Source: Methyloligella sp. | GTDB taxonomy: Bacteria; Pseudomonadota; Alphaproteobacteria; Rhizobiales; HXMU1428-3 | Direction of reading: 5' to 3' | Length of the DNA: 64,000 nt | Assembly: GCA_021604645.1 (NCBI GenBank) | Contig: BQJJ01000004.1 | Location: 186,001-250,000 of the forward strand | Shown here: piece by piece, positions 5,478-25,384 of the stretch | How positions within the stretch are numbered: position 1 is the stretch's first letter | How the letters are laid out: the number at the start of each line of letters is the position of its first letter | The notes under the pieces: model-generated | The model's database searches: none | Told to the model about the DNA's origin: nothing | The model's input: the letters and a program-made list of their open reading frames with translations, nothing else | Program-made: the position numbers and the translations under genes

Positions 5478-5620
5478 TAGTGGCGCTTCAGATGCCCACA
5501 AAGCATCCGCGCTATTAAGTGGCGCTTCAATGCCCACTAGCATCTGCGTTATTAAGTGGCGCTTAAGTTGCCTTTTTTAGTGGGCCTTCAGGTTTCCCAC
5601 CAGAAACCGGCCCGCGAGTA
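5478..5620 (+). repeat. Tandem array of family B hairpins (about 4 units)
   Basis: Unit 1 (5478-5516): outer TAGTGGCGC/GCGCTATTA, a 9-bp stem with two G.U pairs, and inner GATGC/GCATC. Unit 2 (5517-5554): inner ATGC/GCAT in the same frame. Unit 3 (5555-5578) has only a 5' half (GGCGCTTAAGTTGC) ending in a T-run. Unit 4 (5579-5615): outer GGGCC/GGCCC and inner GGTTTC/GAAACC. Stems differ between units while pairing is kept. The array lies upstream of the aminotransferase gene on its coding strand. Confidence 0.8.
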
Positions 5621-17035: not shown

Positions 17036-18031
17036 TTAGTGATGTTGAGAATTAAGAATGCGGTAGACCCCGTAACGGGTAGTTAGCATACAAAGAGCTG
17101 CGATCACTACAACGACTATTCCTAGCAAAATAAACCCTGGTAAATCAAGGGCAGCTGTGCCGAGAAGGCGGCGCACTTCTGCGCTTGTCATGTTGCTTCC
17201 GCCTAATACACGCATGAAGAATGGCATAAAGATGAAGACGATGAGTGAGCCTGTGGCACCAACCAGTCCTGAGCGAATGCCTAATGAGAGAAAGTGGCGC
17301 TCAAATTCACGGGCGATAAAACGGTCTGTTGCACCGACAAAATGAAGAACTTCTACGATCTCTCTGTTGGATGACATGGCAGAACGGGTGGCGGAGACAA
17401 TGACCGCGGTTGTGGCCAAGCCAACTAATATGAGTACAGCAAGGCCTGCTAAAGCCATTGAGCGGGTGACTGTTTGGATTTGTGATTGCCAGCGACGGTG
17501 ATCATCCAATGTGGCGTTTTTGAAATTCTTCTTTATGTCACTGCGGAGTTTATCAAGATTTGGTTTGCTCTCTCTATCTAGTTCAACAGCTATCAAGCGG
17601 GGAATGGGCAAGTCTTTTAAATTAGCACCATCGCCGAGCCAGGGTTCCAGGAGGTCTGCGCTTTCATCTAGTGGCAGAGGGCGTACGCCGGTGATACCTG
17701 GTTGATTTGTTAGGAAAAAAGAGATTTTTGAAAGCTTGTCTTCAATGTTTTCAGTGCGATTTATGCTGATTTGCACTGTGACTTCACTGGCGATGTTATC
17801 TGTCCATGCTGCGGCAGATTGATTAATTAAATATACGCCGCCAGCGGTGAGTGATGCCAGGAAACACATGATGGAGATCACCACAACAAGTGAGCTGCCT
17901 GTTACGGATTTGGCCTGGACGATGGGTGTGTGCTGATTGCCCCAGCCACGTTCTTTGGGGCGAGAAGGAGAGTAAAGCTCCTTGCTCGCTGGTGTAACTG
18001 GTGGTGCTGAATTATTGGGTTGGAACGTCAT
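17036..18031 (-). CDS. ftsX: Cell division protein FtsX
   Basis: A 331-residue membrane partner of FtsE. The Pro/Ser-rich cytoplasmic N-terminus is followed by TM1 (about 48-72), a periplasmic domain (about 73-190) that in other bacteria activates peptidoglycan hydrolases, and three further TM segments near 195-215, 250-275 and 295-320, the expected four-TM FtsX topology. Its start lies 2 bp after the ftsE stop, so the two are translationally coupled. Confidence 0.93.
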   Translation of the reverse strand: MTFQPNNSAPPVTPASKELYSPSRPKERGWGNQHTPIVQAKSVTGSSLVVVISIMCFLASLTAGGVYLINQSAAAWTDNIASEVTVQISINRTENIEDKLSKISFFLTNQPGITGVRPLPLDESADLLEPWLGDGANLKDLPIPRLIAVELDRESKPNLDKLRSDIKKNFKNATLDDHRRWQSQIQTVTRSMALAGLAVLILVGLATTAVIVSATRSAMSSNREIVEVLHFVGATDRFIAREFERHFLSLGIRSGLVGATGSLIVFIFMPFFMRVLGGSNMTSAEVRRLLGTAALDLPGFILLGIVVVVIAALCMLTTRYGVYRILNSQHH

Positions 18032-18033
18032 GT

Positions 18034-18693
18034 TTATCCTACCTGATGAATTCTACCGTCGTGAAGCTCAAGACGTGGTGCTTGAAATTGTTGCATTAGC
18101 TGATGATCGTGCGTCGCGATAATAACAGATGTTCCTAAACGATTTAATTCAATGAACAAACGAAGAAGACGGCGCGCCATTTGAGGATCAACGTTACCGG
18201 TTGGTTCGTCTGCAAGCAGAAGTTCTGGTTTGCCAATTACGGCGCGGGCAATGGCTGCTCTTTGTTTTTCACCGCCAGATAAAACAGGTGACAGGGCATA
18301 CATACGTTCACCCAAGCCTACCCACTGGAGAAGATCTGTGACGTCTTCTTGATAGTCATTTGGTTTTTTGCCGGTGACCCGAAGAGGAAGCGCGACATTT
18401 TCCCAAGTGCTGAGATGATCAAGTAAGCGGAAATCTTGAAAAACAATGCCAATTCTTCGACGTAAATCTGCCCGTCGTGATGGGGTGATTCGGGTTACAT
18501 TTTGGCCAAATAGGTGAATGAGGCCGCGTGTTGGCTGGATAGACATAAATAAAAGCCGTAAAAGCGATGTTTTACCGGAACCAGACGGGCCGGTTAGAAA
18601 GTGTAATGACCCGGGACGAAGATGAAAATTAACATCTCGTAGGATTTCAGGCCCTCTTCCATAACGAAGAGCGACGTTTTCTAATCGAATCAA
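18034..18693 (-). CDS. ftsE: Cell division ATP-binding protein FtsE
   Basis: A 219-residue ABC ATPase of the divisome. Walker A is GPSGSGKT (35-42), the Q-loop is VFQDFRLL (84-91), the signature is LSGGEKQR (138-145), Walker B is LLLADEP (158-164), and the switch His lies in IIATHDH. Its size and its ftsX partner identify it. It is divergent from the zinc-ribbon protein across about 260 bp that hold no other convincing gene. Confidence 0.95.
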   Translation of the reverse strand: MIRLENVALRYGRGPEILRDVNFHLRPGSLHFLTGPSGSGKTSLLRLLFMSIQPTRGLIHLFGQNVTRITPSRRADLRRRIGIVFQDFRLLDHLSTWENVALPLRVTGKKPNDYQEDVTDLLQWVGLGERMYALSPVLSGGEKQRAAIARAVIGKPELLLADEPTGNVDPQMARRLLRLFIELNRLGTSVIIATHDHQLMQQFQAPRLELHDGRIHQVG

Positions 18694-18952
18694 TGGTCTA
18701 ATACCCTCTATTTGATGTGTTTTGGCTTGTTTTTTGAACTTTTCAACTGGCTAGGCTGTGTTTTATGAAAGTGCCGAAATTTATGTTTATCTTAGCCGCC
18801 ATTATTGACAGCAAAAAGTGTTTTGTAAATTTTATTTATCCTCTGAATGAGGCCAAAGCGGGGATAAGTCTGGAAAAGAAGGGCTTCTTTAATTATTTCT
18901 CGGTTATTTCTAGATATCTTTATGTTTTGAACCGCAATTGGTGCCCTTTATT

Positions 18953-20194
18953 ATGATTTTGGTTTGTCCAGAATGTTCGACCCATTATGAAATCCCTTCA
19001 GCTTTGCCTGAAGAGGGGACCAAGGTGCGTTGTACCAGCTGTACCCATGTCTGGATGGCGACCTCGGATGATGTTTTTGAAAATGCCGCTTTGGCAGAAG
19101 AAAGCACAAAAGCTAAAGAGGCAATCCCTGAAGTTGCTGATGTTGGTATTCCAGCGATTTCTCCTACTGATGAAGACCCTTTGGAAGAGCTTGATTTTGA
19201 AGAAATAGAAGAAGAGTTAGAAGATGGTGGGGACGAACTAGATCAAGCCGAATTGGATAGTTTGTTTGAAGAGATGGGTGTAGAACCTGAACCAGAGCCC
19301 GAGCCAGAACCAGAACCTGAAGAAGAAAACTCACAAGGTGACATTGATAGTCTGTTTGATGAAATGGGCGATGAACCTGAGGAAGAAAATTCTCAGGGTG
19401 ATATTGATAGCTTATTTGATGAAATGGGTGATGAACCTGAGGAAGAAAATTCTCAAGACGATATTGATGGTTTGTTTGATGAGCCTGCCGCCGAACCAGA
19501 AGAAGAAAACAATCAAGACGATATAGATGGATTATTTGATGAACCTTCCTCGGAAGAAGGAGAGGATAATTCTCAAGATGATATTGATGGGCTTTTTGAT
19601 GAAGACCCTCCAGCTGAAGAAAGCCCTGTAGAAGAGCCCGTTGAAGAACCAATTGCTGCTGCTACAGAAGATTTACAAGACCCATTTGAGAATGAAATTG
19701 AAGAGGATGACGACCAACCTGCGCCTGAGGCTGAGCCTGTTGCGGCCAAATTACCAATTTGGAAAAGAATGAGCCGAGAAGAAATGATCGGCTGGGGAAG
19801 TTATGGTCTTTCACTTGTCTTGGTTTTTGCCATTGTGATTTTTGCTCGGGTTTCGATTGTTAAAGCTATTCCAAGTATGGCAGGTGTTTATTCTGTTTTG
19901 GGCATGGATGTAAATGTGAGAGGATTAACATTTACGAATGTGCAGCAGAAATGGGTGATTGAAGATAACCGACTTTTATTAAAAGTTCAGGGTGAGGTTA
20001 CGAACCAAACGAATAGATATAAGACTTTACCTCCTATGGTTTTTGGAGCTGTTGGAACGGATAAAAAAGAAATTTTTCGTTGGGTTATGCGGGTGAGAAA
20101 AAAACCTTTATTGCCTGGAGAAAAAGCGCCTTTTATGGCGATGGTTCCTCTACCACCAAAACAAGCTAAGCATCTATTTATTAGTTTTCAGTGA
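18953..20194 (+). CDS. MJ0042-type zinc-ribbon membrane protein with acidic SQxDIDxLFDE repeats
   Basis: About 413 residues. The N-terminal zinc ribbon has Cys at 5, 8, 27 and 30 (CPEC and CTSC; MJ0042/TIGR02098 family). Residues 80-260 are very acidic. Five copies of a 20-residue repeat with core SQDDIDGLFDE start near 127, 147, 167, 187 and 207, and a diverged sixth (DQAELDSLFEE) is near 97. One TM segment (about 283-300) leads to a C-terminal extracytoplasmic domain of DUF3426 character. The family is usually divergent from ftsE, as here; its role is unknown. The ATG at 18953 precedes the Cys motif directly; a TTG at 18938 is possible. A CpdR-like receiver gene follows. Confidence 0.85.
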   Translation: MILVCPECSTHYEIPSALPEEGTKVRCTSCTHVWMATSDDVFENAALAEESTKAKEAIPEVADVGIPAISPTDEDPLEELDFEEIEEELEDGGDELDQAELDSLFEEMGVEPEPEPEPEPEPEEENSQGDIDSLFDEMGDEPEEENSQGDIDSLFDEMGDEPEEENSQDDIDGLFDEPAAEPEEENNQDDIDGLFDEPSSEEGEDNSQDDIDGLFDEDPPAEESPVEEPVEEPIAAATEDLQDPFENEIEEDDDQPAPEAEPVAAKLPIWKRMSREEMIGWGSYGLSLVLVFAIVIFARVSIVKAIPSMAGVYSVLGMDVNVRGLTFTNVQQKWVIEDNRLLLKVQGEVTNQTNRYKTLPPMVFGAVGTDKKEIFRWVMRVRKKPLLPGEKAPFMAMVPLPPKQAKHLFISFQ

Positions 20195-20196
20195 TG

Positions 20197-20312
20197 CCTC
20201 TCACGGCTATTCGATGAGCTGAAGCTCATCGGCCTACGAGGTGCGGCGGCTAGGCGCCGGGCAGCGGAAGCTGCCATGTCCTGGCGTCGAAGTGACGCCA
20301 CTCCTTCTTTGA
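20197..20312 (+). repeat. Family A structured repeat, copy A4 (best-paired copy)
   Basis: Starts CTCTCACGGCTATT 3 bp after the zinc-ribbon stop and ends CTCCTTCTTTG. All four hairpins are present: CGATGAGC/GCTCATCG with a TGAA loop (20212-20231), CGGCG/CGCCG (20244-20259), GGCAGC/GCTGCC with a GGAA loop (20260-20275), and TGGCGTC/GACGCCA with a GAAGT loop (20282-20300). Linker GGCCTACGAGGTG lies between hairpins 1 and 2, and ATGTCC lies before hairpin 4. Confidence 0.85.
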
Positions 20313-20457: not shown

Positions 20458-20862
20458 ATGGCTCGGATATTAATAGCTGAAGATGATTTCGCGGTTAGAG
20501 ATTTTACGTATCGCGCTCTATCTATGGATCATCATGATGTGGTTGTGGCACACGAAGGGCAAGAAGCTCTTAGGTGCTTGACTGTGCCAGATGATAATTA
20601 TGACCTTATGATTAGTGATATACGCATGCCGGTTATTGATGGTGTGACCTTAGCGAAATTGATTTTTAAGCAACAACCGCATTTGCCAATTTTACTGATG
20701 ACTGGCTATTCAACTGCAGAAGATTCTGATTACGCACCTTCTGTTGTAGGGGTTTTGCAAAAACCTTTTACCTTAGAAATGATCCGGCAAGCGGTTCATT
20801 CAGCTTTGGGGCAAGGACGGGAAAAGTCTTTAGACAAGCAGTTAAAGCTTGGTTTGATGTAG
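20458..20862 (+). CDS. cpdR: CpdR-like single-domain response regulator
   Basis: A 134-residue stand-alone receiver domain. The acidic pair is EDD (8-10), the phosphoacceptor is D54 in MISDIRMP, the Thr is in LLMTGYS, and the Lys is in LQKPF. There is no output domain. In Caulobacter and relatives CpdR directs ClpXP proteolysis during the cell cycle under the CckA-ChpT phosphorelay. Assignment rests on domain architecture, the MARILIAEDD start and its position near ftsE and the zinc-ribbon gene. The ATG at 20458 with AGGTG upstream is preferred; an in-frame start at 20395 would add 21 unrelated residues. Confidence 0.82.
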   Translation: MARILIAEDDFAVRDFTYRALSMDHHDVVVAHEGQEALRCLTVPDDNYDLMISDIRMPVIDGVTLAKLIFKQQPHLPILLMTGYSTAEDSDYAPSVVGVLQKPFTLEMIRQAVHSALGQGREKSLDKQLKLGLM

Positions 20863-25064: not shown

Positions 25065-25189
25065 TTTATTCTTTTTGTTTCTGTTTAAAAGCAGAAAGAA
25101 CAAGAGATGCTATTTCATCATCTTGTTCTTTCTATTGTTAGTTTACAAAGGTTCTCTTAGTTAAAGGCTTTTTAGTTTAAGAGATTGTC

Positions 25190-25384
25190 TTAGTTTAAGA
25201 GACCATCAAGGATAAATCCTCTGTGTGGTTTTTCCTCTTTAACTACAGGTGCATCACCTTCAGTTTGAGCTTCTGGTGGTGCTTCCAATGGTCCCTTCAC
25301 ACCGCATGCTGTGAGTGACAAGGCAGCAAGTACTAGTGCCAAGCCAGCTAAAATATTAATAGCTTTTGCAGTGCGCAGAAACAT
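25190..25384 (-). CDS. lptM: LptM-like small lipoprotein (YifL family)
   Basis: 64 residues. The signal peptide ends in the lipobox LTAC, giving a lipid-anchored Cys at about 27, and is followed by GVKGPLEAPPEA, the CGxKGPL start typical of LptM/YifL. In E. coli LptM assists oxidative maturation of the LptD LPS translocon. Its position between argH and lysA is the conserved one. Confidence 0.85.
   Translation of the reverse strand: MFLRTAKAINILAGLALVLAALSLTACGVKGPLEAPPEAQTEGDAPVVKEEKPHRGFILDGLLN

Follow-up and report, generated by a model that had tools for sequence, protein, structure and literature searches.

The locus raises two questions: why a zinc-ribbon membrane protein encoded beside ftsEX carries tandem copies of a peptide resembling that through which FliM binds phosphorylated CheY (CheY-P), and which receiver, if any, those copies serve to bind. 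The stretch analysed (the window) comprised 64,000 nucleotides of a Methyloligella sp. genome (contig BQJJ01000004.1, positions 186,001 to 250,000), and features of the locus are listed in Table 1 by window position.

The N-terminal four-cysteine zinc ribbon of the encoded protein scored 46 bits against PF13717 (cut-off 30.3) and 26.7 bits against PF13719, the family named for ZitP (cut-off 29.3), and residues 1-41 were matched with an E-value of 8.4e-7 by PDB 2nb9, which we take to be the zinc ribbon of Caulobacter ZitP. In the alignment to 2nb9, the cysteines, the tryptophan and R27 were kept while K18, R24 and R34 were replaced by A, T and V, respectively. An AlphaFold model, built from a two-sequence alignment and with a mean pLDDT of 51, showed the ribbon as ordered and the linker as disordered, and placed a helix at residues 275-304 ahead of a beta domain; a hydrophobic segment readable in the sequence likewise indicated a single span before the C-terminal domain, the helix itself being modelled with low confidence. 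The repeat region is predicted to be flexible, with pLDDT values mostly under 50 and no helix or strand over residues 121-270. Scores for DUF3426 (cut-off 27.7) were 12.4 bits for this protein, 13.3 bits for the orthologue in genome G483 and 32.6 bits for a repeat-bearing orthologue in G110, which belongs to another order. The layout described for Caulobacter ZitP is a cytoplasmic zinc ribbon, a membrane span and a periplasmic DUF3426 domain (PMC5182065, PMC5182063), and binding of PopZ by its ribbon is reported to involve W35, the cysteines and a basic patch of K18, R24, R27 and R34 (PMC5182065). The present protein shares with it the N-terminal CxxC ribbon, the W35- and R27-type residues, the single span and a C-terminal domain presumed to be extracytoplasmic, but differs in its long acidic linker with putative receiver-docking repeats and in a DUF3426 score below cut-off. 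The protein resembles ZitP and is referred to here as ZitP-like.

Table 1. Features of the ZitP-like locus, in order of window position
Feature	Positions	Strand	Details and basis
ftsX	17036..18031	-	TIGR00439 67.3 bits, below its cut-off
ftsE, divergent neighbour	18034..18696	-	TIGR02673 275.8 bits, cut-off 264.85
ZitP-like gene	18953..20194	+	413 aa, ATG at 18953; zinc ribbon, acidic disordered repeat linker, one membrane helix, C-terminal beta domain
MJ0042/Zn_ribbon_4 domain (C5, C8, C27, C30, W34)	18953..19060	+	PF13717, TIGR02098; alignment to 2nb9
Motif copy 6, diverged, DQAELDSLFEE, residues 97-107	19241..19273	+	translation
Motif core 1, SQGDIDSLFDE, from residue 127	19331..19363	+	core comparison
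Motif core 2, SQGDIDSLFDE, from residue 147	19391..19423	+	core comparison
Motif core 3, SQDDIDGLFDE, from residue 167	19451..19483	+	core comparison
Motif core 4, NQDDIDGLFDE, from residue 187	19511..19543	+	core comparison
Motif core 5, SQDDIDGLFDE, from residue 207	19571..19603	+	core comparison
Predicted membrane helix, residues 275-304	19775..19864	+	AlphaFold secondary structure, low confidence
Beta-rich domain at the C-terminus (residues 313-412), presumed periplasmic and DUF3426-like	19889..20188	+	AlphaFold; DUF3426 below cut-off
CpdR-like single-domain receiver, a conserved neighbour and improbable docking partner	20458..20862	+	PF00072 69 bits (20458-20859)

An array of five 20-residue repeats in exact period and a diverged sixth, as described in the initial annotation, was confirmed by translation and by Tandem Repeats Finder (60-bp period, 19313-19603, 4.8 copies, 79% matches). 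The five 11-residue cores (19331-19603) follow the pattern [SN]Q[DG]DID[SG]LFDE and recur exactly every 20 residues. The core sequence given in that annotation, SQDDIDGLFDE, is literally present in two of the five; SQGDIDSLFDE accounts for two more and NQDDIDGLFDE for one. All five fit the docking-peptide core [SN]Qx[DE][IV]DxL[FL] with its essential ID dipeptide. Differences between repeats were frequent at silent sites (pS 0.76) and rare at amino-acid sites of the cores (pN 0.09), with an amino-acid difference of 0.27 over the nine residues preceding the core. Similarly, pN/pS values from comparison with three of the five congeners (G004 and G001 being excluded by a start-codon filter) were 0.03, 0.04 and 0.06 for the cores as opposed to 0.15, 0.22 and 0.56 for the remaining linker. 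This strong constraint indicates that the cores are selected as protein. Elsewhere in the window, Tandem Repeats Finder noted arrays at 5479-5572 (period 37) and 25138-25202 (period 18).

These results bear on the reading that the linker is an acidic low-complexity spacer, its likeness to FliM accidental and its copies products of slippage that have no ligand. The linker is 40% D/E, and tandem arrays are prone to slippage. However, when the acidic linker was shuffled 20,000 times, at least one match to the loose pattern Q..[ILV][DE].[LM][FL] arose in only 0.3% of the shuffled sequences (an expectation of 0.003 for this linker) whereas six were observed, with the caveat that five copies made by duplication do not represent five independent events. 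Among 91 motif-free proteins (72 from the class and 19 from the order), 0.017 chance matches were expected and none was seen. The constraint on the cores and the occurrence in several families of separate arrays with different spacers, described below, also disfavour an accidental spacer, which we regard as extremely improbable.

A degenerate nucleotide pattern encoding Q-x-[DE]-I-D-x-L-[LF] matched 12 sites in the 3.57-Mb genome, while the reversed pattern matched none. Nine of the 12 fell in five plausible proteins, with five of these nine in the ZitP-like gene, and the other three were in short frames that are probably non-coding. FliM (PF02154, 209 bits) carries one copy, NQDEIDNLL, in its N-terminal region (SERILNQDEIDNLLG), and two CheZ proteins carry the motif at the very C-terminus, as NQDDIDALFD in one (PF04344, 61.1 bits) and SQNDIDNLF in the other (42.7 bits); the PF04344 alignments extend through these tails. 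The second cheZ lies after a cheY, and the product of this cheY matched structures of E. coli CheY at 143 bits. A PDB sequence search with CheZ gave no match. The motif also ends a 188-aa protein with no Pfam family (VQDEIDALFD; L075:5508-6071, plus strand, contig C4 at about 127.5-128.1 kb, outside the window), the tail of which is kept in the two congeners read (QADIDALFD and QNEIDALFD); this is possibly another CheY-binding protein. The set of motif proteins in congeners was similar.

The known role of this peptide is informative. The Caulobacter FliM peptide ILNQDEIDSLLG, which differs from the corresponding FliM sequence of the present genome, ILNQDEIDNLLG, at one residue of twelve, is reported to bind CheY-like Cle proteins, and a change of ID to WA to abolish this binding (PMC5677366). 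The EIDALL motif of FliM is described as docking in the alpha4/alpha5 groove of CheY-P, with a Kd near 27 uM cited for the FliM peptide in the same source (PMC9126983); given so weak an affinity, several copies make sense. The C-terminal CheY-P-binding region of CheZ is described as conserved between E. coli and Azorhizobium (PMC7750401). The repeats share with the N-terminal peptide of FliM a motif of the [SN]QxEID.LL type (NQDEIDSLL in Caulobacter; PMC5677366), although FliM of the present genome has one copy, in its N-terminal region, whereas the ZitP-like protein has five to six internal tandem copies that end in LF. They are similarly like the CheY-P-binding tail of CheZ; CheZ, however, is a phosphatase, and its FQD(L/I)TGQ segment is absent from the ZitP-like protein. 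Thus, the likeness to the CheY-binding peptide of FliM that had first drawn attention to the locus is borne out by FliM and by both CheZ C-termini of the same genome, as well as by tandem recurrence on orthologues in other families, and reading the repeats as docking motifs is well supported by sequence comparison.

Whether the repeats are kept in orthologues, a check proposed in the initial annotation, was then examined. In a first search of relatives, a match was found in 46 of 61 genomes. Four to six copies are retained in each of the five matched congeners. Congeners G003 and G005 gave no match in that search, and a scan of genome contigs gave one relative only. Tandem arrays were found on positional orthologues in five families, namely f1 (that of the present genome), f44, f51, f13 and f102, the last from another order, and the positional orthologue in f11 has two motif copies. 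Positional orthologues across the class were located via ftsE. FtsE was detected at E <= 1e-70 in 99 of the 172 genomes sampled, and the region upstream of ftsE was taken from the 97 that remained besides the present genome and G110. No zinc-ribbon ORF was present at 25 of these 97 loci, some of which were short contig ends, and neither the motif nor its reverse was present in any of the 72 orthologues with such an ORF. The repeats are thus kept in the matched congeners and, as tandem arrays, in several families, but not across the class. The motif is not a function of the ZitP family, as the majority of orthologues do not have it.

A tandem-motif pattern applied to 385 genomes of the class matched nine (control, one match). 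On reading, the arrays were real in the present gene, in the ZitP-like orthologue of G110 (four copies, gene divergent from ftsE), in two CheZ proteins and in a TRAP permease, while four looked spurious. Within the order, 41 of 297 genomes were matched by this pattern (control, none). One of the 41 matches was spurious, and the others were assigned to 25 ZitP-like proteins, 11 CheZ, two PopZ (DUF2497, 97.1 and 93.4 bits), one receiver and one EAL protein. The 25 ZitP-like arrays comprised six from the genus of the present genome, ten from genus g343, six from genus g51 and one each from G622, G483 and G448. Those of g343 have up to nine copies, and some g343 genomes carry CheZ arrays too. Array cores (SQDDIDALF, DQGAIDDMF, NQADLDALF and SQDAVDSLF) and spacings vary, and several arrays were therefore probably gained or expanded separately.

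Other carriers were noted in the course of these searches. Two to five motif copies were seen in some CheZ proteins. The CheZ proteins at L308 and L309 (G470 and G578) carry five to six motif-like copies, and in both genomes the array of the ZitP-like protein is long as well. A CheY-like single receiver (L312:2684-3454, plus strand, G517) has four SQDDIDNMF copies in its own C-terminal tail, a natural fusion of receiver and motif. An EAL-domain membrane protein (L311:3267-5312, minus strand, G031) has four copies of SQ(D/G)DVDA(L/M)F at its C-terminus. Three related copies are at the C-terminus of a TRAP DctM permease (L170:5233-7032, plus strand, G089). An origin of the arrays by copying of a genome's own CheZ tail was considered and found unsupported (f51 arrays read DQGAIDDMF and DQSSIDDMF, as opposed to SQDDIDSLF and AQDDIDAMF in CheZ of G057).

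Within genus g13, ZitP-like proteins of G483 and G448 bear four copies while in G019 three copies are on PopZ and none on the ZitP-like protein. The tandem pattern found no PopZ array in G483 or G448. ZitP and PopZ of Caulobacter are reported to bind each other directly (PMC5182065), and the g13 array thus appears to have changed carrier yet remained within one polar complex. The same observations could be read as a pole-targeting or self-association signal of CheZ, ZitP and PopZ, recognised by a polar partner that is not a receiver. Polar localisation is documented for all three proteins in the species studied (PMC7750401, PMC5182065, PMC5182063), and the motif is also found on the 188-aa protein of no Pfam family. 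Against this, the N-terminal helical regions of Azorhizobium CheZ are reported to suffice for polar localisation whereas its C-terminal region binds CheY-P (PMC7750401), and the same motif serves FliM for CheY. A pole signal of this kind is very unlikely.

The best hypothesis for the repeats is that they dock a receiver at the membrane, and the partner first proposed was the product of the adjacent gene, a CpdR-like receiver, with which the array would form a multivalent dock beside FtsEX. This neighbour is indeed a single-domain receiver (Table 1), but its name is loose, with 78.9 bits against a cut-off of 180 for the NCBIfam CpdR equivalog model, which is Brucella-based. Adjacency of the CpdR-like gene is conserved across the order, and Caulobacter CpdR is reported to interact with PopZ and to have a polar location that depends on phosphorylation (PMC11519897). 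However, the CpdR-like gene also adjoins a zinc-ribbon gene without the motif in G013, G031, G049 and G012, an outcome that the initial annotation had named as refuting its idea, and in G110 the contig ends before any receiver gene. Residues that make the FliM contact in CheY are also missing: CpdR-like proteins of repeat-bearing genomes have V, I or F at the position of Y106 and A or I at that of K119 (11 of 11 read), the neighbour itself having V, Q and A at the positions of Y106, V108 and K119, and 23 CpdR-like proteins from repeat-free genomes were similar at the docking positions, with no clear shift. CpdR docking was therefore rejected as the first choice, on both repeat-free synteny and docking residues, and is considered decidedly unlikely. 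Proximity to ftsEX, also mentioned in the initial annotation, is non-specific evidence since the neighbourhood is common to repeat-free orthologues.

Two further observations concern this neighbour. CpdR-like receivers of the genus of the present genome do not have a QRERA-type stretch (alpha4 region) that is present in those of other families and may therefore have diverged from CpdR function. Between the ZitP-like and receiver genes is a cluster of strong hairpins (20197-20300), where a 131-nt stretch folds 2.5 sd below shuffles and the first hairpin has no other copy in the window.

CheY-P or another CheY-like protein is a likelier ligand than the CpdR-like neighbour, to judge from docking residues. 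CheY of the present genome keeps Y106, V108 and K119, only three of the eight FliM-contact residues given for E. coli CheY in PMC8225110. It was nevertheless alone in having all three among the 31 distinct receivers examined, from 45 receiver matches in the genome. CheZ and CheY (E <= 1e-50) were both found in 20 of 20 repeat-bearing genomes among 80 tested, which is consistent with a CheY ligand but non-specific, CheZ being found also in 31 of 60 repeat-free genomes. The number of receivers leaves room for a different ligand, either a Cle-type c-di-GMP effector or a second CheY-like receiver (133-aa frame, contig C9), in which case the array would sense that signal and not cheYZ output. Cle proteins of Caulobacter are reported to bind the same FliM peptide (PMC5677366), and the 133-aa receiver retains Y106 and K119, with L109. 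The combination of residues found only in CheY among the 31 receivers examined argues against such a ligand, which we consider unlikely.

The preferred explanation is that a ZitP-type pole scaffold holds, in its repeats, a multivalent dock for CheY-P, and as a whole it is given a probability of roughly 55%. The protein would be a bitopic scaffold, its zinc ribbon predicted to bind PopZ at the cell pole and its long, acidic, disordered cytoplasmic linker presenting five to six copies of the FliM N-terminal and CheZ tail peptide. Each copy would be a weak docking site for an activated receiver of the CheY family, with the product of the cheY next to cheZ in this genome as the likeliest candidate. 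Jointly, the copies would form a multivalent dock, anchored in the membrane, by which CheY-P is concentrated at the pole, near the flagellum, the receptors and CheZ; this dock would either compete with FliM and CheZ for CheY-P or share it with them. The motif and the constraint on it, its likeness to the motifs in FliM and CheZ of this genome and its recurrence on ZitP-like proteins and on PopZ are observed, whereas CheY-P binding, PopZ binding, polar location and an effect on motility are what we infer. A broader reading, to which we give a little less than even odds, is that the CheY-binding motif of FliM and CheZ is a plug-in peptide in Alphaproteobacteria that has moved repeatedly onto the ZitP-PopZ hub and onto other proteins (CheZ tails, the EAL protein, the TRAP permease and the receiver) and been multiplied there in tandem. 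Multivalent, phosphorylation-controlled capture of CheY would then link chemotaxis output to polarity, with lineages choosing ZitP or PopZ as the carrier.

Polar landmarks of the HubP/FimV type are comparable in being membrane-anchored scaffolds of the pole with acidic cytoplasmic repeats, as in the ZitP-like protein; unlike it, they have to our knowledge no zinc ribbon, and their repeats are not FliM-like. Tandem arrays of the peptide on a ZitP-type scaffold were not found in searches of the open-access literature, although peptide and scaffold are individually known. The arrays are also an instance of a bacterial short linear motif that has been reused and multiplied across unrelated proteins, a pattern better known from eukaryotic signalling.

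Caulobacter ZitP is reported to promote efficient swarming motility "by an unknown mechanism" (PMC5182063). Natural ZitP variants with putative CheY-docking arrays offer a direct and mutable handle on a possible link of the pole scaffold to chemotaxis, and their occurrence suggests, for some bacteria, a coupling of chemotaxis signalling to that scaffold.
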